A stretch of 64,000 nucleotides of DNA from Fimbriimonas sp. Lineage in GTDB: Bacteria; Armatimonadota; Fimbriimonadia; Fimbriimonadales; Fimbriimonadaceae. Of this stretch, positions 13,646 through 31,243 are shown piece by piece. The notes below the pieces were generated by a model, which saw only the letters and a list, made by a program, of their open reading frames with translations, was not told the DNA's origin and made no database searches. Each line of letters opens with the position of its first letter. Within the stretch, counting starts at the first letter, position 1. Both the position numbers and the translations under genes were made by a program. The DNA lies in contig JARLGV010000025.1 of NCBI GenBank assembly GCA_031292555.1, positions 1 through 64,000 of the forward strand, given 5' to 3'.

Positions 13646-15025
13646 ATGGGCCAATCATCACTGGGCCGCAATAACAAATCGATCGTCTGGTTGACGATTG
13701 CGGTTGCGGTCGTCATTTCACTGTTCGCTCTTTGGTCGAAGTCGCCATTTGGCCAGGCGCCTACCAAGCTAGAGGCTGAACTAAAGGCGGCCGCATCCGA
13801 CGGCATGCCTACTGGCCCCGACGACCTAAGGCGTTTGTCGGCGGTGCCTTCCGGTCAGAATGCGGCTCCCTCGCTTGTCATTGCATTTGCGAACCTCAAG
13901 ACATGGAGTGATAGTAAAGAGGGCAAGGCGTTCTCTAAGGACCTCAAGGCATTTCGATCGGGTGATCCGGTCGATGACGGCTTGATGGCGCGAATTCGCA
14001 AAGACGTCGGTAGCGCCTCGAAGCTACTTGGGCTGCTGTCGCAAGCGGACGCGTTTCCACGAGTTGATTTCCGCCGTGAATGGGAAAAGGGGCCGTCGCT
14101 CTTGTTGCCTCAGTTTGCCTCCGAGAAGCTGGCGTGCTCACTTTTGCTGGCTCGGGCGCGTATTCAGATGGCGGATGGAGACCTCGAAGGAGGACTCCAA
14201 TCTATGCATGCGGCGGCGCATTTGGCTGACCTGGCGGGTCAGGAGCCAATGATCATCGGGTACTTGGTGCGCAGCGCCATGGTGCACCTTGTGCTTCGAG
14301 ACTTGGCCGCCGTCATCGACAGTCATCCTAATGACCTTGGTGTGTTGGAGCGGTGTCGGACAGTCGCTCTCGCGTTGGGACCGAGTCCGGACGTTAGGCC
14401 GGCAATTGGCGCCGAACTTGTGAGCGGCCGAATTGCGATGAACATGATCGCGAAGAATCCCAGCGCGCAGCTCTTTGGCGACAACGAGCCCAAGATGCTG
14501 ATGGCGGCTCGATTTGGGCCGACACGGACGATTTTCGAGTGGCGCTACGTGCAAGTTATGCATGAGCTGTATCGCGCACTGGGCCGGCGCCCCGAATCGT
14601 TCTTGGCGATGCATAAGGCTTTCGTTGACGTCGACAACAAATTGAGCTCCAATGCCGATTGGACCTATGCCTTTGCCGAGTTGATGTCGCCTGTGTTCAC
14701 TAACATGTCCAGTGCGCTTGGCGAATGTCAGGCGATGGTCAATGTCACCCTGTGCGGCATCGATCTGCTTGAAGTACGCGCCAAGACGGGCAGTTTCCCC
14801 TTGAAACTACCTGGTCAGGTGGGCCAATGGACGGACCCGTTGACCGAGAAGCCCATGATCTATCGACCGTCCGCGAAGGGGTTCCTAATCTATAGCGTCG
14901 GTCCAAACGGCGTTGACGACGGCGGCAAACCGAGGACGGTGGACTCGCGGGACCAGGAGTACGACGTACCTTTCCAGTTTCCTGCGGCGGCTGTACCGTC
15001 AAGACCTGCCAAGAGTAAACACTAA
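13646..15025 (+). CDS. membrane-anchored protein of unknown function
   Basis: 459 aa. One membrane segment at about residues 13-30, then a long helical extracytoplasmic region. The last 100 residues carry a pattern seen at the end of many planctomycete and armatimonad proteins and of GspG-like pseudopilins: FPLKLPGQVGQWTDPLTEKP, IYRPSAKGFLIYSVGPNG and DDGG. I do not recognise the main body. The stop overlaps the stop of the VKOR-DsbA gene tail to tail by 4 bp. Confidence 0.75.
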   Translation: MGQSSLGRNNKSIVWLTIAVAVVISLFALWSKSPFGQAPTKLEAELKAAASDGMPTGPDDLRRLSAVPSGQNAAPSLVIAFANLKTWSDSKEGKAFSKDLKAFRSGDPVDDGLMARIRKDVGSASKLLGLLSQADAFPRVDFRREWEKGPSLLLPQFASEKLACSLLLARARIQMADGDLEGGLQSMHAAAHLADLAGQEPMIIGYLVRSAMVHLVLRDLAAVIDSHPNDLGVLERCRTVALALGPSPDVRPAIGAELVSGRIAMNMIAKNPSAQLFGDNEPKMLMAARFGPTRTIFEWRYVQVMHELYRALGRRPESFLAMHKAFVDVDNKLSSNADWTYAFAELMSPVFTNMSSALGECQAMVNVTLCGIDLLEVRAKTGSFPLKLPGQVGQWTDPLTEKPMIYRPSAKGFLIYSVGPNGVDDGGKPRTVDSRDQEYDVPFQFPAAAVPSRPAKSKH

Positions 15026-16122
15026 CGACCGCGGATGATAGCGGCGAACTGCGACTGGCTTAGAACCTTCGCCAGGTTTGTGCTGGTGGCTACACCGACC
15101 GGTTTGTGATCGATGAACAGGATATAGGTGGGCGTCTGACGAATTCCATATCGATTTCCCAGAGCGATGGCGTCCCTTACTGCCTTCTTCGCCTCCTCGG
15201 TCGACATCGTTCTCTTGCCCTTCAAAGACGATTCGATCTGATTCAAGTCCTCCTTGGTCGGTTTGGTCGGCGACTCATACACCTGATTCACGAAACTCCA
15301 GAAGTCGGTTTGGTCCAGGCGCTCGCTCATCTCGGCAGCTGGGATCGACAATTCGTGGCCCTCCTCGGCGGCGAGGGGGAAGTGGTGGAAAAGTAGCGAA
15401 ACCTTGGTCGGGTACTTCGAAAGGAATTTGAGGACCCGACTGTGCATATCGCGGCATGCCGGACACATTAGGTCGCCAAACTCGGCAATGACGATTGGAG
15501 CTGCCGACGAGCCGAAGGAATGGGATGTCCTCTCGACGTCGCCATAGTCGACAATATTGAGATTAACCGACGATAGGTCGACGACCGGAGTTTGCCCCCG
15601 CTCTCCCTTGATTGCGACTGTTCCGATGACCATAGCGGGAACGGCAAACCATAGGAAGAGGGGCCCTGTCCGAATTCGGTCTCCAATCTGCTCGACGTGG
15701 CGCAAAAGGTAAAGGTTAGCCAACAGTGAACCGACCATCATACACGCCGAACCCAAACACCAGGCGCATGTTGCATGGATGTGCGTCACGGCATACCAGG
15801 TCAGCCCGCCGCTAACGAGCACGCCAACAAGCGAAATGCCGGCTGCCGCAAGTACGTTGTCCTGCTTGGTCTTCAGAACCGGACGATTGAGAAGGCGGGT
15901 CGTTGCCAGTAGGATAAGCAACGCATAGCCAACCAGGCCGAATACCGACACCGGGATTCCCATAAACGCGGAACTGGGGTCGTGGGCAACCTTCTCGCAC
16001 CCACTACCTCCTCCGCACGGTAAGGGCACGTTGGACGCGTGCGAGAGAGTGAGGGCAGATGCGATCGCTAGTCCCGCAGAAGCAAAGGACAACGTCAGTC
16101 GGTTGGCAAGAGCTGCTCCCAT
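15022..16122 (-). CDS. VKOR-DsbA fusion, periplasmic disulfide formation
   Basis: 366 aa. Residues 1-170 are a vitamin K epoxide reductase-like membrane domain with four or five helices, the loop cysteine pair Cys36/Cys42 and the quinone-site CAWC (Cys119/Cys122). Residues 190-366 are a DsbA-like thioredoxin domain with CPAC (Cys220/Cys223) and the cis-Pro in RQTPTYILF. One polypeptide thus oxidises client thiols and passes electrons to quinone. It lies 12 bp downstream of the PilP-like gene, at the end of the pilus operon, which suggests that pilus proteins are its clients. Confidence 0.92.
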   Translation of the reverse strand: MGAALANRLTLSFASAGLAIASALTLSHASNVPLPCGGGSGCEKVAHDPSSAFMGIPVSVFGLVGYALLILLATTRLLNRPVLKTKQDNVLAAAGISLVGVLVSGGLTWYAVTHIHATCAWCLGSACMMVGSLLANLYLLRHVEQIGDRIRTGPLFLWFAVPAMVIGTVAIKGERGQTPVVDLSSVNLNIVDYGDVERTSHSFGSSAAPIVIAEFGDLMCPACRDMHSRVLKFLSKYPTKVSLLFHHFPLAAEEGHELSIPAAEMSERLDQTDFWSFVNQVYESPTKPTKEDLNQIESSLKGKRTMSTEEAKKAVRDAIALGNRYGIRQTPTYILFIDHKPVGVATSTNLAKVLSQSQFAAIIRGR

Positions 16123-16134
16123 GCCGGCACCAGC

Positions 16135-16872
16135 CTAATCGATGGGTACGCCGAACTTCAGCGTGTGGTAGACCATTCCCTGGCTGACGACCACGATGCT
16201 GTCAGTTGCCGAAACCAGTGTGAATCCATTCGCGAATCTGTCCCCGGTGGACACGATGTAGTCCTTTCCGGCCAGCTTGATCACAACGATCGGATGCGGT
16301 CCGGAAACGATGCCGCTTAATAGAAGCGAATCGGCCTTTGGCTGGTCGGATTCGGCAACAACCGATCCGCCCTCCGGGTTGACTGGCTTGTTCGAAGGGT
16401 TTCCGGTTCTTTCTGTAGGCGGGAGGGTTCCAGAAATAGGTGTCGGTAGTTCGGATGATTCAACAGAATCCGAGCTACTCATCGCCTTTGCTCTCTTCTT
16501 TCGTGCCTCTTCGATTGCCACCTCGTCATCCGATTTCATGCCTATTCCTAGATGAGGCTTGAACGGGTCTTTGGTCGGTGGCGTGGCAATGGAATTTAAC
16601 TTAATTGCCGTGTCTTTCTTGGGAGTTCCAATGCCCGACATGGCAACTTTGTTATCGTTCGAACCGGCACTTGCTTCTGGTACTGGCGTAGTGCCGGCCG
16701 GACCACTAGTCGAACCAGTACCTGCGACTTGGACCGTCGCATTCGTCGGTGGCGGTACCATGTCGCCTCCAAGGGCGCTCTTGACGCGCATCACAACCAA
16801 CGCGAACACGACAACGACCCCGACAACGAGGCCGATCGCCTTCGTACGATCTTCGGGACGGATCGACTTCAA
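16135..16872 (-). CDS. PilP/GspC-like type IV pilus protein
   Basis: 245 aa. One membrane segment (about 12-29) and a long low-complexity linker rich in Pro, Ser, Thr and Gly. The final beta-domain (LLSGIVSGPHPIVVIKLAGK, DYIVSTGDRFANGFTLV, GMVYHTLKFG) is the HR-type domain of PilP and GspC that links the inner-membrane platform to the secretin. TTG start 3 bp after the secretin stop, with GGAGG 11 bases upstream. Position after pilQ supports the role, although in most species pilP precedes pilQ. Confidence 0.72.
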   Translation of the reverse strand: MKSIRPEDRTKAIGLVVGVVVVFALVVMRVKSALGGDMVPPPTNATVQVAGTGSTSGPAGTTPVPEASAGSNDNKVAMSGIGTPKKDTAIKLNSIATPPTKDPFKPHLGIGMKSDDEVAIEEARKKRAKAMSSSDSVESSELPTPISGTLPPTERTGNPSNKPVNPEGGSVVAESDQPKADSLLLSGIVSGPHPIVVIKLAGKDYIVSTGDRFANGFTLVSATDSIVVVSQGMVYHTLKFGVPID

Positions 16873-18976: not shown

Positions 18977-19549
18977 TCAGGGAGTTGCTTTGTCTTCGTC
19001 CTTCCTGGTCGAAACAACGTAGCGTCCCACAGACATTGTAACCGTATTGTCGCCCACTTTGTTACGGTTCCAAATGATATTGCTAAGTGTGTAGAGCCGG
19101 TCCGACTCCTCGAGTTCACCCATGAGTTGGCGAAGTCCCGGATAGGGTCCGGATAGAGTCATAAAACTGCTGATCTTGCGTATCCCTTTGAGTAGGGCCG
19201 TAACTTGTGGGTCTTGCTTGTCAGCGTTCTTGTCTTTACCATACTCGGTGGATTGGCTTGTCCATTTGTCCAACGACACTCCGTTGGCGGTGGCCCTTTG
19301 ACGGAGGAAATTGATGAACGTCGGTTCTTCGTCGGGAGTGTCGGCAACCGCGGCGTACTTCTTCTCTTGGAGCATGGTGTCCGCCCCTTTCTTGTTCTTA
19401 GTGGCCTTTTCGACGTCTCGATTCGCCAAATCTAATGAATTGCTTGCTTCGATGAACGCCGAACGCTGAGCGAATATGACCCAAAAGGCGACCGCCATAC
19501 AGAGAATGGGGAAGCCCCAGCCGAGGATGCGCGTAGGATCGGATTTCAC
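18977..19549 (-). CDS. pilO: PilO-like pilus assembly protein
   Basis: 190 aa. One membrane segment (about 8-26), a coiled coil, then a ferredoxin-like domain (ALLKGIRKISSFMTLSGPYPGLRQLMGELEE, given here by its ends) typical of PilO. It pairs with PilN at the inner membrane to align the motor with the pore. GTG start overlapping the PilM-PilN stop as GTGA. A 154-bp gap without gene separates it from pilQ. Confidence 0.85.
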   Translation of the reverse strand: MKSDPTRILGWGFPILCMAVAFWVIFAQRSAFIEASNSLDLANRDVEKATKNKKGADTMLQEKKYAAVADTPDEEPTFINFLRQRATANGVSLDKWTSQSTEYGKDKNADKQDPQVTALLKGIRKISSFMTLSGPYPGLRQLMGELEESDRLYTLSNIIWNRNKVGDNTVTMSVGRYVVSTRKDEDKATP

Positions 19550-24366: not shown

Positions 24367-24750
24367 TTACAGGTTCACGTTGAATGGCGTGGGAGTCCAT
24401 GGTCCACAATTCCCTCCCTCCAATGCAGTCACCGTCGCCGACTTCGAAGTGGCCGTGATCACATAACCGCCAGAATTTCCTGTGCACGGATTTGTTGGCA
24501 CTGAACCGCCCATGTCGACAGCATAGTCAGCCACCACCGTATCGTAGTATCCGGTCGATGTGGCGCGGGATTGGACTGCGGATGCGAGCGCTCTAGCGTT
24601 GCTATTGGCCGATCCCTGCTGCGTTGTCTGAACCGTGCTGATATATACCGGCAGCGCAATCATCGTCAGAATGCCGAGAATCAGAATCACGACCAGGAGT
24701 TCAGTGAGGGTAAAACCCGTCGTGTTCGGCTTGGCTCTGAGGTTATTCAT
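24367..24750 (-). CDS. minimal type IV pilin A
   Basis: 127 aa. MNNLRAKPNTTG leader, then FTLTELLVVILILGILTMIA (Glu5 of the mature form present), QGSANSNARALASAVQSRA and a small C-terminal domain with one cysteine pair (NPC and GGNCGPW). The ATG at 24750 follows GGGGAGA; the frame upstream of it is non-coding in style. One of six paralogues of 127-130 aa in this window. The small size resembles the conductive or minimal pilins only in length; the globular part is present. Confidence 0.9.
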   Translation of the reverse strand: MNNLRAKPNTTGFTLTELLVVILILGILTMIALPVYISTVQTTQQGSANSNARALASAVQSRATSTGYYDTVVADYAVDMGGSVPTNPCTGNSGGYVITATSKSATVTALEGGNCGPWTPTPFNVNL

Positions 24751-24927
24751 GTCGTCTCCCCTTTCGTTTCGGTCGGACTCTGCTCCGAATTTTGGTTCGG
24801 CACCGACCGGCAATCTATCTTTCGGCGAGGCGGGTCCAGACATGAAGGTCCCAGTGATTCTTTGAGGCTTTGATCCTGGGACCGTTGGGCGTAGAGGCTA
24901 AGACAATCTGTATTGGCCAAACGCAAG

Positions 24928-24960
24928 GAAGCCCGAGATGGCAGTGCCATCTCGGGCTTC
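24928..24960 (-). terminator. hairpin after pilin B
   Basis: GAAGCCCGAGATGGCA at 24928-24943 is fully complementary to TGCCATCTCGGGCTTC at 24945-24960, a 16-bp stem around one base. It starts 20 bp after the pilin B stop. There is no strong T-tract on the minus strand, so it may attenuate or stabilise the transcript rather than end it. Confidence 0.65.
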
Positions 24961-24979
24961 TCGGGATTCGAACGTGAGC

Positions 24980-25363
24980 TTAGAGAACGAGCGAGAACGT
25001 CGTCGGGGTCCAAGTTCCGCAGTTGGAACCGGTCGAAGCAACGACGGAAGCAGTTGTCGTGGTCGAGGAGATCACATAGCCGGTCGTGCTGGCCGTGCAA
25101 GGATTGTTGGGGATCGTGCCGCCCATGTCCGTCGCGAAGTCGGCGAGGGTCGTGTCGTACGAGCCGGAAGCGATCGCATGGGCCTGAACGGCGGTGGCAA
25201 GCGCTCGAGCGTTGGTGTTGGCGGCGCCTTGGCGAGAAGTCTGGACCGAGCTGAGGTAGGACGGCAGAGCGATCGCAGTGAGGATACCGAGAATCAAAAC
25301 GACGACGAGTAGTTCGATGAGCGTGAAGCCCTTTCGGTTGCGGCGAATCCTGAGTTGTTTCAT
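24980..25363 (-). CDS. minimal type IV pilin B
   Basis: 127 aa. MKQLRIRRNRKG leader, FTLIELLVVVLILGILTAIA, RQGAANTNARALATAVQAHA, and cysteines in NPCTAS and GSNCGTW. Closest in text to pilins D, E and F at 53-55 kb, so this is likely the parent or offspring of that cluster. Start chosen at the conserved leader Met. No Shine-Dalgarno; a -10 element lies 10 bases upstream. Confidence 0.92.
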   Translation of the reverse strand: MKQLRIRRNRKGFTLIELLVVVLILGILTAIALPSYLSSVQTSRQGAANTNARALATAVQAHAIASGSYDTTLADFATDMGGTIPNNPCTASTTGYVISSTTTTASVVASTGSNCGTWTPTTFSLVL

Positions 25364-25373
25364 CACGATGTAG

Positions 25374-25402
25374 ATGATACGGACAATCGCCAACTACCGC
25401 AA
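25374..25402 (-). promoter_or_regulatory. candidate promoter of pilin B
   Basis: On the minus strand TTGCGG (25402-25397), a 17-base spacer, then TATCAT (25379-25374), ending 10 bases before the ATG. The expected transcript would have a leader of only a few bases, matching the lack of a ribosome binding site. Confidence 0.4.
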
Positions 25403-25657
25403 GTAACAGTTTTCCGTGACTGGTTTCGTGCAACTCCAGGGCCAATCGACTGGGGCGTGATCAATACAAATGTAGAATGGGCTAGGTTCGTCTAGGAGCA
25501 CACTGTCTCGTTAGGTGCCGATCCTAATCTTGACAAGTACTCGAATGCTGATTTGCGGTTTGAACCTGGAAGCGAGTCATCCGTGCCTGGCATCTTATCG
25601 AGGACCTCCGGTCCAAATTGCATGCTCTGCCTGCTAGCTATCTGTTAGGCGCATGGG

Positions 25658-26041
25658 CTACAGCTTTACTGAGTATGTGATCGGCGTCCAGAATCCACAG
25701 TTCTGTCCTTCCGTCGCGGTTACTGTAGCGTTTGTCAGACTCGCCACGATCAGATAACCGGAAGAGGTTTCCGTACACGGGTTTATGGGGACAGAGCCAC
25801 CAAAGTCGGATGCATAGTCTGCTACGTTTCGGTCGTATCGGCCAATCCGTTTCGCACGGCTCTGAACGGCTGCGGCAAGTGCCCGTGCGTTCGCATTGGC
25901 ACTGGATTGCCTTGTAGTCGTGACCGAAGAGTTGTATGCGGGGAGGGCGATCGAAGTCAGGATTCCAAAAATCACGACGACCAAGAGCAGTTCCGGCAGG
26001 GTGAACGCACTCGTCCGGAAATCGGTGGGACACGTGCGCAT
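25658..26041 (-). CDS. minimal type IV pilin C
   Basis: 127 aa. Leader MRTCPTDFRTSA, then FTLPELLLVVVIFGILTSIA: the residue before the cleavage point is Ala rather than the usual Gly, and Pro sits at mature position 4. Glu5 is kept. SANANARALAAAVQSRA and the cysteine pair (NPCTE, GQNCGFW) follow. The most diverged of the six pilins. TATATT lies 7 bases before the ATG at 26041, so its mRNA may be nearly leaderless. Confidence 0.85.
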   Translation of the reverse strand: MRTCPTDFRTSAFTLPELLLVVVIFGILTSIALPAYNSSVTTTRQSSANANARALAAAVQSRAKRIGRYDRNVADYASDFGGSVPINPCTETSSGYLIVASLTNATVTATEGQNCGFWTPITYSVKL

Positions 26042-26266
26042 ACGCGCTAATATACTGCCACCTTGTTCCAGTCGATTCCGGCAGGAAGGCCGAGTCACGG
26101 AAATGCGGTAAAGAAAGCAAGTTACACCAGGTATTTAACCGGTTAGGATGCGTCCTTGTTGACAATAACCCTGTTCTTGCTCTCGTGGAATATCCGGCGA
26201 AAGTCATCTGCGTGTCCCCGTCCGTCGCCATCGGCAAGGGCGACGGCAAACAGGGACAAGCAGTTC

Positions 26267-29344: not shown

Positions 29345-30373
29345 CTACTCAATCACACTTTGGTGTGACATGGCAGCGTCCCTAGAGATCGTATCTGACT
29401 GCACGAGGTCGTCGAGTGCCTGCTCGAGCGATCGGCATTCGGGGTCCGATGCCTGCAGTCGATTGAGGCCCGCGGAGTCCTCTGCGATGATTGCCTGCTT
29501 AACGGGCGGCGTCACCCTGATCCACTCGTATACCGCAATTCGACCGGGGCGATCATTCCGAGGTATTAGCCTCTGCACGGAAACCGCTTTGAGGTTCCGG
29601 GCGAGTCTCATCCGAGCGGTCATGGGGTCGAGATCGAGGGAATTTGCCAGTCGATCGATGGCCTCTGGGATCGAAGTCGCGTGCAGGTTCGCCAATACGA
29701 GGTGCCCCGTTTCGGCGAGCACCAGCGCTTGGCGCAAGGCTTCAGTCGACGAGACGTCGTCGATGGCCAGCACGTCCAAGTCGGCTTGATGAGCGATCTC
29801 CATGGCGGCCCCGTAGCTTTCGCAGTCCTCTCCCACATGGAACTGGGTCACAAGGCCCTGTTTGCTTTCGAAACGGTAGTTCGGGTGAGCTTCGATGACA
29901 AAGAGCCTCGCCGCAATCGTGGCATTGATCTCCTCGATGAGGGAACACACCGTTGTCCACTTGCCGCTGTTTACCGGGCCAGCCACGATGACGAGACCGT
30001 TGGGAAGCTTCATGATCTCCCTCCAAAACGAATCGGCGCCCTCTGAGATGTACTTCAACTCAGGCACCGCCTTCGCCAAGACACGGAAGGTCACCGCCAG
30101 GCGGTCGTCTCCTCCTCGGAACGCGATACCGGTAAAGGTCATTCCGTCGTGTACAACCGACCGCTCGACCGCCTTTCCCGACGCAACTCGGATGACCGAT
30201 TCCGGTGATAGGTACGAAGTCAGGAGTTCGTTCATCGCAGTGCCTTCGAGTCTTGGCAGGTCAAGCGCGGTCAGTACCCCGTCGATCCGAATTCTGGGGA
30301 TTTCTCCGGTGGACAAATGAATGTCCGAGGCGTGTTGTCGAATAGCTATTTCGAAGAATTCGGTTAGTTTCAT
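29345..30373 (-). CDS. PilT paralogue with degenerate nucleotide site
   Basis: 342 aa. Overall PilT layout: MKLTEFFEIAIRQHASDIHLS, RIRIDGVLT, GHLVLANLHATS, QRLIPRNDRPGRIAVYE. But Walker A (132-139) reads GPVNSGKW, with Trp in place of the Ser/Thr that coordinates Mg2+. Walker B reads DLDVLAIDD instead of DPDVILVGE, and the arginine-rich segment before it is missing. It is therefore probably not a normal retraction ATPase and may regulate the motor. The ATG at 30373 has GGAG seven bases upstream; an ATG at 30415 lacks one. Confidence 0.85.
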   Translation of the reverse strand: MKLTEFFEIAIRQHASDIHLSTGEIPRIRIDGVLTALDLPRLEGTAMNELLTSYLSPESVIRVASGKAVERSVVHDGMTFTGIAFRGGDDRLAVTFRVLAKAVPELKYISEGADSFWREIMKLPNGLVIVAGPVNSGKWTTVCSLIEEINATIAARLFVIEAHPNYRFESKQGLVTQFHVGEDCESYGAAMEIAHQADLDVLAIDDVSSTEALRQALVLAETGHLVLANLHATSIPEAIDRLANSLDLDPMTARMRLARNLKAVSVQRLIPRNDRPGRIAVYEWIRVTPPVKQAIIAEDSAGLNRLQASDPECRSLEQALDDLVQSDTISRDAAMSHQSVIE

Positions 30374-30395: not shown

Positions 30396-30692
30396 TTACC
30401 ATCGTCTGACGACATCGTCAGACGGGAAACTGGGAGAGTGGCGAGATCGCTCGGGCCTCATCACGTCGATTCGCAGTCGGACGATCTGCTCTCGGAGTTG
30501 GGCACTCTCGCGTCTCATTTCGAGCAATTCGGCACGCATCGAACGAATCTCGTTCAGTAACTCGCTCGCCTCCGACTGGGCCGGTACCGAACCGCCGATT
30601 CCTGCCGCAACCCGAACGGTCAGGTCGGTCGTCTGGGGGACCCACGCCTGTACGAGGGTCTCGATATCTCTTGAAGGCTCAGAGGTGTTCAT
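30396..30692 (-). CDS. small coiled-coil protein following the ECF sigma factor
   Basis: 98 aa. MNTSEPSRDIETLVQAWVP at the start, then a strongly heptad-like helix SELLNEIRSMRAELLEMRRE and onward to about residue 80. No membrane segment or HRXXXCXXC anti-sigma motif. The ATG overlaps the sigma-factor stop as ATGA, so the two are translated together. It could be a soluble regulator of that sigma factor or a motor accessory; neither can be shown from sequence. Confidence 0.7.
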   Translation of the reverse strand: MNTSEPSRDIETLVQAWVPQTTDLTVRVAAGIGGSVPAQSEASELLNEIRSMRAELLEMRRESAQLREQIVRLRIDVMRPERSRHSPSFPSDDVVRRW

Positions 30693-31243
30693 GGTTGGTT
30701 GCGGGTTTCTGCCCAGGAAGCGAGGCGCCGGCGCAATGCCGTCAGCGCATGGTTTTTTCGGCTGCCGACCGTACCCGTTGGGATGTCGAGTGATGTGGCG
30801 ATCTCGTCGTACGACAGCCCCTCGTATGTCGAAAGAATCAGAACCGCTCGCTGGTCGACCGGAAGACTCATGACGGCGTCTCTGACGGCTTGGGCAAGCG
30901 CATTGCTTTCGACGCGGGAATCGACATTCTGAGCGGAAGGTAAGTTGGGATTGAGGCAGCAATTACGTCGAGAGGATTCGATGTGATCGATGCAGAGACG
31001 AAAGGCTGCGCGAATGAGCCACGAGTAGGTCGAGCCCGCGGGGACGAACGTGCGGCGGTTCTCCCAAAGTCGGAGGAAGGCGCCTACTGCTATGTCCGAA
31101 GCGGTATCCGAGTCCCCTCCGAGCATGCGGGCGGCGAAGCGCTGCAGAGGATGCTGATAGCGGCGGACGAGCAAGTCGAATGAATCGGTGTCACCATTCG
31201 CTGCTCGCCGTATCAGTTCGTCATCGCACCTTTGTTCGCTCAT
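30689..31243 (-). CDS. ECF-type RNA polymerase sigma factor
   Basis: 184 aa. Region 2 (DSFDLLVRRYQHPLQRFAARML, ASDIAVGAFLRLWENR) and region 4 (MSLPVDQRAVLILSTYEGLS, YDEIATSLDIPTGTVGSRKN) are complete. A typical small ECF sigma factor for alternative promoters. It is the first gene of a co-directional series with a coiled-coil gene, the PilT paralogue, pilB and pilC, so it may set expression of the pilus motor or answer to it. A classical membrane anti-sigma factor is not encoded next to it. Confidence 0.92.
   Translation of the reverse strand: MSEQRCDDELIRRAANGDTDSFDLLVRRYQHPLQRFAARMLGGDSDTASDIAVGAFLRLWENRRTFVPAGSTYSWLIRAAFRLCIDHIESSRRNCCLNPNLPSAQNVDSRVESNALAQAVRDAVMSLPVDQRAVLILSTYEGLSYDEIATSLDIPTGTVGSRKNHALTALRRRLASWAETRNQP

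Follow-up and report, generated by a model that had tools for sequence, protein, structure and literature searches.

Bacterial gene expression changes when pili touch surfaces, and there are to our knowledge few direct links between the pilus machine and RNA polymerase. The closest described systems are the PilT/PilU ATPases (TIGR01420; 2ewv, 3jvv, 6ojx, 9n32), the pairs of an ECF sigma factor with a soluble zinc-binding class I anti-sigma factor (ASDI), and proteins with the MshEN domain, the N-terminal domain of PilB, MshE and GspE, which in some cases binds c-di-GMP. According to excerpts of PMC7406223, the motif Hx3Cx2C is the signature of zinc-binding class I anti-sigma factors, about 35% of whose members are soluble. 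RmdB of Streptomyces, which acts on RsiG-sigma WhiG, belongs to unrelated families, being a c-di-GMP phosphodiesterase and not a homologue of the pilus motor in the passages of PMC13232838 that describe it. For Fimbriimonas ginsengisoli Gsoil 348, sections of PMC4072686 list a genome of 5.23 Mb with six pilT genes and 30 rpoE-type sigma genes. While PilT, ECF sigma factors and soluble anti-sigma factors are known kinds of protein, the combination of PilT and an ECF sigma factor in one operon was not found in the open-licence PMC literature as represented by titles, the starts of abstracts and passages, and the words PilT, pilus, pili and ATPase are all missing from the ECF sigma review PMC8103513.

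In this study, we analysed a window of 64,000 nucleotides from Fimbriimonas sp. (contig JARLGV010000025.1 of assembly GCA_031292555.1), in which a PilT-like protein is encoded as the third gene of an operon, behind an ECF sigma factor and a small coiled-coil protein (Table 1). The alignment of this protein to P. aeruginosa PilT, from which the numbers of the canonical PilT residues are taken, runs end to end, and its AlphaFold2 monomer (pLDDT 93.9) has the full-length PilT/PilU fold in Foldseek, with a TM of 0.90 to 2ewv and 9n32. Pfam T2SSE is matched at 57.9 bits (cut-off 24.9), and the best NCBIfam match is the PilT/PilU family TIGR01420 at 193.7 bits, which is below the curated cut-off of 319.1, as is the 208.4 of the corresponding protein in G008, one of the comparison genomes to which we refer by G numbers. 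We lean towards reading the window protein as a PilT-derived regulator of the ECF sigma/anti-sigma pair, probably binding nucleotide without hydrolysing it, that would act as a cytoplasmic switch and not as a motor subunit.

Table 1. Features of the sigma factor operon in the window (positions counted from the first letter of the window).
Feature	Positions	Strand	Remarks
ECF sigma factor, first module gene	30689..31243	(-)	Pfam Sigma70_r2 40.3 bits; Sigma70_r4 and r4_2 above cut-off
Middle protein, 98 aa, coiled coil	30396..30692	(-)	first 4 bp shared with the end of the sigma gene
PilT-like protein, catalytic motifs lost; third module gene	29345..30373	(-)	342 aa; intact ORF; orthologues
Walker A GPVNSGKWTT	29951..29980	(-)	W139 codon = 29957-29959
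Asp box IEAHPN (canonical IEDPIE)	29879..29896	(-)	
Walker B DLDVLAIDD (canonical DPDVILVGE)	29756..29782	(-)	

A first-pass annotation of the locus had described a PilT paralogue with Trp at the Walker A Ser/Thr position, an eroded Walker B and lost arginines within an otherwise intact PilT frame, and most of this description is borne out. Like PilT/PilU ATPases, the window protein has the fold, the domain order, the Walker A lysine and the His-box histidines (H224 and H231), together with the QRL segment. Unlike them, it has GKW (W139) in place of the Walker A GKS/T of PilT, Asn for the Asp-box Glu, Asp for the catalytic Glu of Walker B, F, E, Q and S in place of the arginine network R176, R190, R194 and R206, and PVKQAIIA in place of AIRNLIRE, a motif of PilT and not of PilU; it also differs in being encoded with a sigma factor. 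The AIDD of Walker B was read correctly, but "replaced" suits it better than "eroded", since D205-D206 are invariant in the four closest members of the family. In the portions of PMC6858323 that deal with these residues, P. aeruginosa carrying E204A or H229A does not twitch, and R206S is given as a natural PilT defect of V. cholerae MO10 in part of PMC6762196. The window protein carries D at the E204 position, H at that of H229 and S at that of R206; ATP hydrolysis has therefore probably been lost in the window clade, and the missing Mg-coordinating Ser/Thr, Asp-box Glu and arginine network, with Asp for the catalytic Glu, make this loss most likely; the first-pass argument against normal hydrolysis thus carries over to a conserved, probably hydrolysis-deficient protein. 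The retained P-loop lysine suggests that the protein may still bind nucleotide or phosphate, and together with the new hhhhDD this invariant lysine could permit slow hydrolysis. With a score short of the curated cut-off and several defining motifs missing, the protein should not be filed as PilT; we prefer to class it as a PilT-derived part of an ECF sigma module of Armatimonadota. A second, canonical PilT, which the first-pass annotation had suggested looking for, lies elsewhere in the window genome on contig C118, beside another pilB; three tandem PilT-type paralogues with GKS/T Walker A motifs are found on contig C77 (L144:6780-10300).

Full-length orthologues with 42-50% identity and similar losses are present in three of the 19 other same-genus genomes (G008, G017 and G005). 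These and the window protein score 608-627 bits across the 20 genus genomes, the next match having 209. A first scan of the genome contigs with the single protein gave no match. Among the candidates scored in 291 phylum genomes, none further lies near these four and the next has 249 bits; the phylum searches scored at most seven (A1, A3) or eleven (A2) candidates per genome, so that a missed member is possible. Conservation of W139 in orthologues holds in part, the Walker A motifs of the four being GKWTT three times and GKVTT once. The exception is G005, the sole close member with Val after the P-loop lysine, where the PilT-like gene (L142:1259-2281) is an orphan lacking the module sigma and middle genes; a gene upstream of it, encoded on the opposite strand, carries a MOSC domain.

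Across the wider family we compared ten module members with 22 canonical PilTs. The P-loop lysine is universal (10/10 and 22/22), whereas the remaining catalytic positions are complete or nearly so in the canonical panel and reduced in the module: Walker A Ser/Thr (4/10 against 22/22), Asp-box Glu (1/10 against 22/22), R176 (2/10 against 22/22), R190 (1/10 against 19/22), R194 (3/10 against 22/22), the Walker B catalytic Glu (3/10 against 22/22), R206 (2/10 against 22/22) and H229 (5/9 against 22/22). AIRNLIRE is found in none of the eight readable module members (an alignment gap covers it in G077 and it is off the contig in G076), and it is also missing or varied in some of the canonical panel. 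The PilT-like protein of G081 is nearest to canonical; it keeps GKSTT, IEDPIE and IGEL and passes TIGR01420 (332.6 against 319.1), and it is without the His-box histidine and one arginine. Because of these motifs and this score, an active ATPase may be at work in some modules. The catalytic residues are eroded to differing degrees, in what by motif content is a graded series from a near-canonical ATPase in G081 to a probable pseudo-ATPase in the window clade, and such a family offers natural material on what the motor fold does once ATP is no longer burned.

That the gene is decaying and has no current function would agree with the motif losses, with its patchy presence (four of 20 genus genomes) and with the orphan copy in G005, but we find this hardly credible: the reading frame is intact in 10/10 members despite their deep divergence (in G076 up to where the contig stops), the orthologues share new residues at 42-50% identity, and the operon is kept over four families. 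Decay is already largely refuted by the intact orthologues. One-off decay of the window copy, which the first-pass annotation had named as the contrary case, is ruled out by the three same-genus orthologues that keep the losses (GKWTT, GKWTT and GKVTT, all with DD). Alternatively, the protein could be an active ATPase of altered chemistry, in which the Asp pair forms a more classical Walker B and which mechanically pulls the anti-sigma off the sigma factor. The universal lysine, the invariant D205-D206 and the near-canonical Walker motifs of G081 and G083 all agree with this; however, the window clade has Trp or Val at the Mg-coordinating place and is without the Asp-box Glu and the arginine network, and R206S alone was linked to the V. 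cholerae PilT defect in the relevant passages of PMC6762196, so we consider active chemistry in this protein unlikely.

The first-pass annotation placed the gene between the ECF sigma gene and pilB, which is correct for pilB, but the gene of the middle protein separates it from sigma; it also proposed that the protein modulates PilB. Downstream of the PilT-like gene on the same strand, the window indeed carries pilB, pilC, prepilins, pilX, pilM and a secretin. Among the four genomes with a close orthologue, this adjacency to pilB occurs in the window genome only, and in G008, G017 and G005 the gene lies away from any pil operon: beyond ATPase homology, none of the window pil proteins was found within 38 kb around the G008 gene, on the whole 44.9 kb G017 contig or in 14 kb of G005. 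PilB of the window kind (57-100% identity) occurs in nine genus genomes, three with the PilT-like gene (G000, G005 and G008) and six without it, and G017 has the PilT-like gene without such a PilB; the two genes are about 55 kb apart in G008 and on different contigs in G005. In G019, the genes for TPR, 33375, the Cys/Met enzyme, the CoA-binding protein and pilB stand in the window order (PilB 88% identical), and the site between the CoA-binding gene and pilB consists of about 285 bases, the trio being missing. From this distribution, these distances and the empty G019 site we conclude that the pilB neighbourhood is local and not conserved. Similarity between the CoA-binding/pilB intergenic DNA of the window and that of G019 was not above shuffles and no insertion junction was seen, so the trio may have been inserted in the window lineage or lost in G019.

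Neither the neighbourhoods nor presence across the genus support the PilB partnership. The first-pass reading in its wider form, a pseudo-ATPase that acts on the neighbouring type IV pilus machine by joining PilB, PilT or PilC and so damps or tunes the motor, could point to the same-strand pil genes downstream, to the complete PilT fold that is retained and to PilU, a PilT paralogue able to work through PilT in the account given in parts of PMC6762196. We nevertheless regard it as improbable, given the single adjacency to pilB, the absence of pil proteins around the G008, G017 and G005 copies, the G019 pilB region with its empty site, and the loss of AIRNLIRE. The directly following pil genes may still be meaningful in the window lineage.

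The conserved neighbours lie upstream, namely the ECF sigma factor and the small middle gene. The window sigma has Sigma70 regions 2 and 4 with no other domain, and it exceeds the cut-off of the NCBIfam sigma70-ECF superfamily. The order ECF sigma, small coiled-coil protein, PilT-like protein is conserved in at least nine of the 291 Armatimonadota genomes, from four families (f1, f10, f11 and f13). The PilT-like gene of G008 and that of G017 also stand behind counterparts of the small gene and of the sigma gene, the latter with 55% and 53% identity. In G103, G079 and G081, from three other families and reached via the next-best PilT-like matches of the phylum search, the PilT-like gene is preceded by an ECF sigma gene from the same group, with a gene for a zinc finger and coiled-coil tail between them. 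When the 291 genomes were searched with the sigma alignment, nine scored above 179 bits, after which scores dropped to 159 and less, and a same-strand PilT-like gene lies downstream in all nine, including G083, G076 and G077, which are outside the model. By comparison with these three outside loci, all with a PilT-like gene, a PilT was found within the 1.5 kb flanks of none of 30 lower-scoring sigma loci (Fisher p 0.0002); for the lower-scoring loci of G064, G063 and G190, longer stretches look by reading like ordinary sigma loci. Among 80 loci picked by N-terminal patterns, many with short flanks, none of the 78 not titled Armatimonadetes had a module sigma near a PilT at E 1e-4.

The sigma and middle genes overlap at all nine loci (by 4 bp at seven), and the middle and PilT-like genes are at most 26 bp apart or overlapping at eight. 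The ninth locus, in G083, has a distance of 1,385 bp, which is accounted for by a TnpB-like gene on the opposite strand between the anti-sigma and PilT-like genes (L264:2004-3167, minus strand, with a Cas12f1-like TNB domain above cut-off). The sigma factors of the module have a common origin, and so have its PilT-like proteins: in an unrooted tree of 32 PilT proteins with long branches (10 module, 22 canonical) the module lies on one side of a 100/100 branch, and in an unrooted tree of 39 sigma factors, likewise with long branches and with rows cut to the matched stretches, the nine module sigmas group together as a clade (97/92). Upstream of the module sigma genes of the window, G008 and G017, a simple search for shared 7-mers and spaced pairs gave no common promoter, so autoregulation is unsupported.

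The surroundings of the trio differ in each genome examined, and G005 keeps the PilT-like gene alone, as one might expect if the three genes travelled as a genomic cassette in which the job of the PilT-like protein is unrelated to sigma. We judge this very unlikely, because the sigma and middle genes overlap at every locus, the window clade and the pairing of G076 with G077 appear in both trees, and the domains of the middle proteins fit both neighbours, namely an anti-sigma zinc finger and a PilB-type MshEN. The middle proteins of G103, G079, G081 and G083 exceed the cut-off of Pfam zf-HC2 and are the four of nine with Hx3Cx2C, so that in these genomes the gene overlapping sigma resembles a soluble class I anti-sigma gene; a membrane-like stretch is found in none of the nine. 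Unlike an ECF/ASDI pair, the module has a third, PilT-derived gene, the window, G008 and G017 have lost the zinc-finger part, and in G076 and G077 MshEN stands in its place, above the Pfam cut-off; neither a class I anti-sigma domain nor Hx3Cx2C was found in these five middle proteins. The MshEN also differs from that which binds c-di-GMP, as an RLGxxL-type motif, as given in sections of PMC12943098, was found in none of the nine middle proteins. As far as predicted domains go, the module unites an anti-sigma-type protein with PilB/PilT-type parts, some middle proteins having a zinc finger and others MshEN, and the third gene always being of PilT type. The middle protein of G076 (L265:666-1751, minus strand) has sigma-70 regions 1.2 and 2, MshEN and a coiled coil in one chain, a fusion of part of a sigma factor with a PilB-type domain.

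The middle protein of the window matches no Pfam family above cut-off and has no recognisable anti-sigma domain, and its structural model is confident for the helix 42-78 and of low confidence for the rest. In alignment A7, however, all nine middle proteins share a W/D/V/I segment (with exceptions at the Trp), the coiled coil and a proline-containing tail. The window protein is on this alignment the C-terminal part alone, homologous to that of the zinc-finger anti-sigma proteins in distant modules; as coiled coils align easily, gene position and the flanking segment are needed as further support for the homology of the short forms.

Taken with the domains of the middle proteins, the conserved operon suggests that a motor protein has been reused to regulate transcription in some bacteria. 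For the switch that we favour, the ancestral module would have combined a PilT-type ATPase with an ECF sigma factor and a soluble zinc-finger anti-sigma that had a coiled-coil tail, all encoded in a tightly packed operon. The sigma factor would be held by the middle protein, whose conserved coiled coil would dock onto the PilT-like protein, and nucleotide at the PilT-like P-loop, self-binding or contact with the pilus machine would alter the grip of the middle protein, so that sigma is freed or trapped. In the window clade, where the P-loop lysine persists although ATP hydrolysis has most likely gone, the PilT-like protein would serve as a scaffold for binding or as a sensor of nucleotide. Loss of hydrolysis is inferred, as are contact between the three proteins, the direction in which control runs, its signal and its targets, whereas the conserved operon, the shared origin of its sigma factors and of its PilT-like proteins, the middle-protein domains and the eroded residues are observed. 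The pilus machine is a possible input, further PilTs and PilBs being present in genus genomes. That a pilus-motor ring has become a signalling subunit, with nucleotide or pilus sensing passed to the ECF sigma factor via a coiled-coil adaptor, seems rather unlikely to us; if true, transcription would be wired directly to pilus activity or surface contact, with neither a membrane anti-sigma factor nor a chemosensory pathway. With a sigma factor, an anti-sigma-like protein and a homologue of the pilus motor encoded together in a conserved operon, a link from pilus to RNA polymerase becomes testable.

Some further features of the pil region deserve mention. Three related prepilin genes (N_methyl) stand in a row at 24367-26098 of the window, and as three similar copies occur at the same place in G019, the duplication is common to both. 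No Pfam match was obtained for three ORFs that lie within the pil operon or close to it (13646-15022, 16138-16872 and 18980-19549). Downstream of the secretin end of the operon, a gene at 15022-16122 encodes VKOR and DsbA/thioredoxin domains, and it possibly serves disulfide formation in pilus parts.
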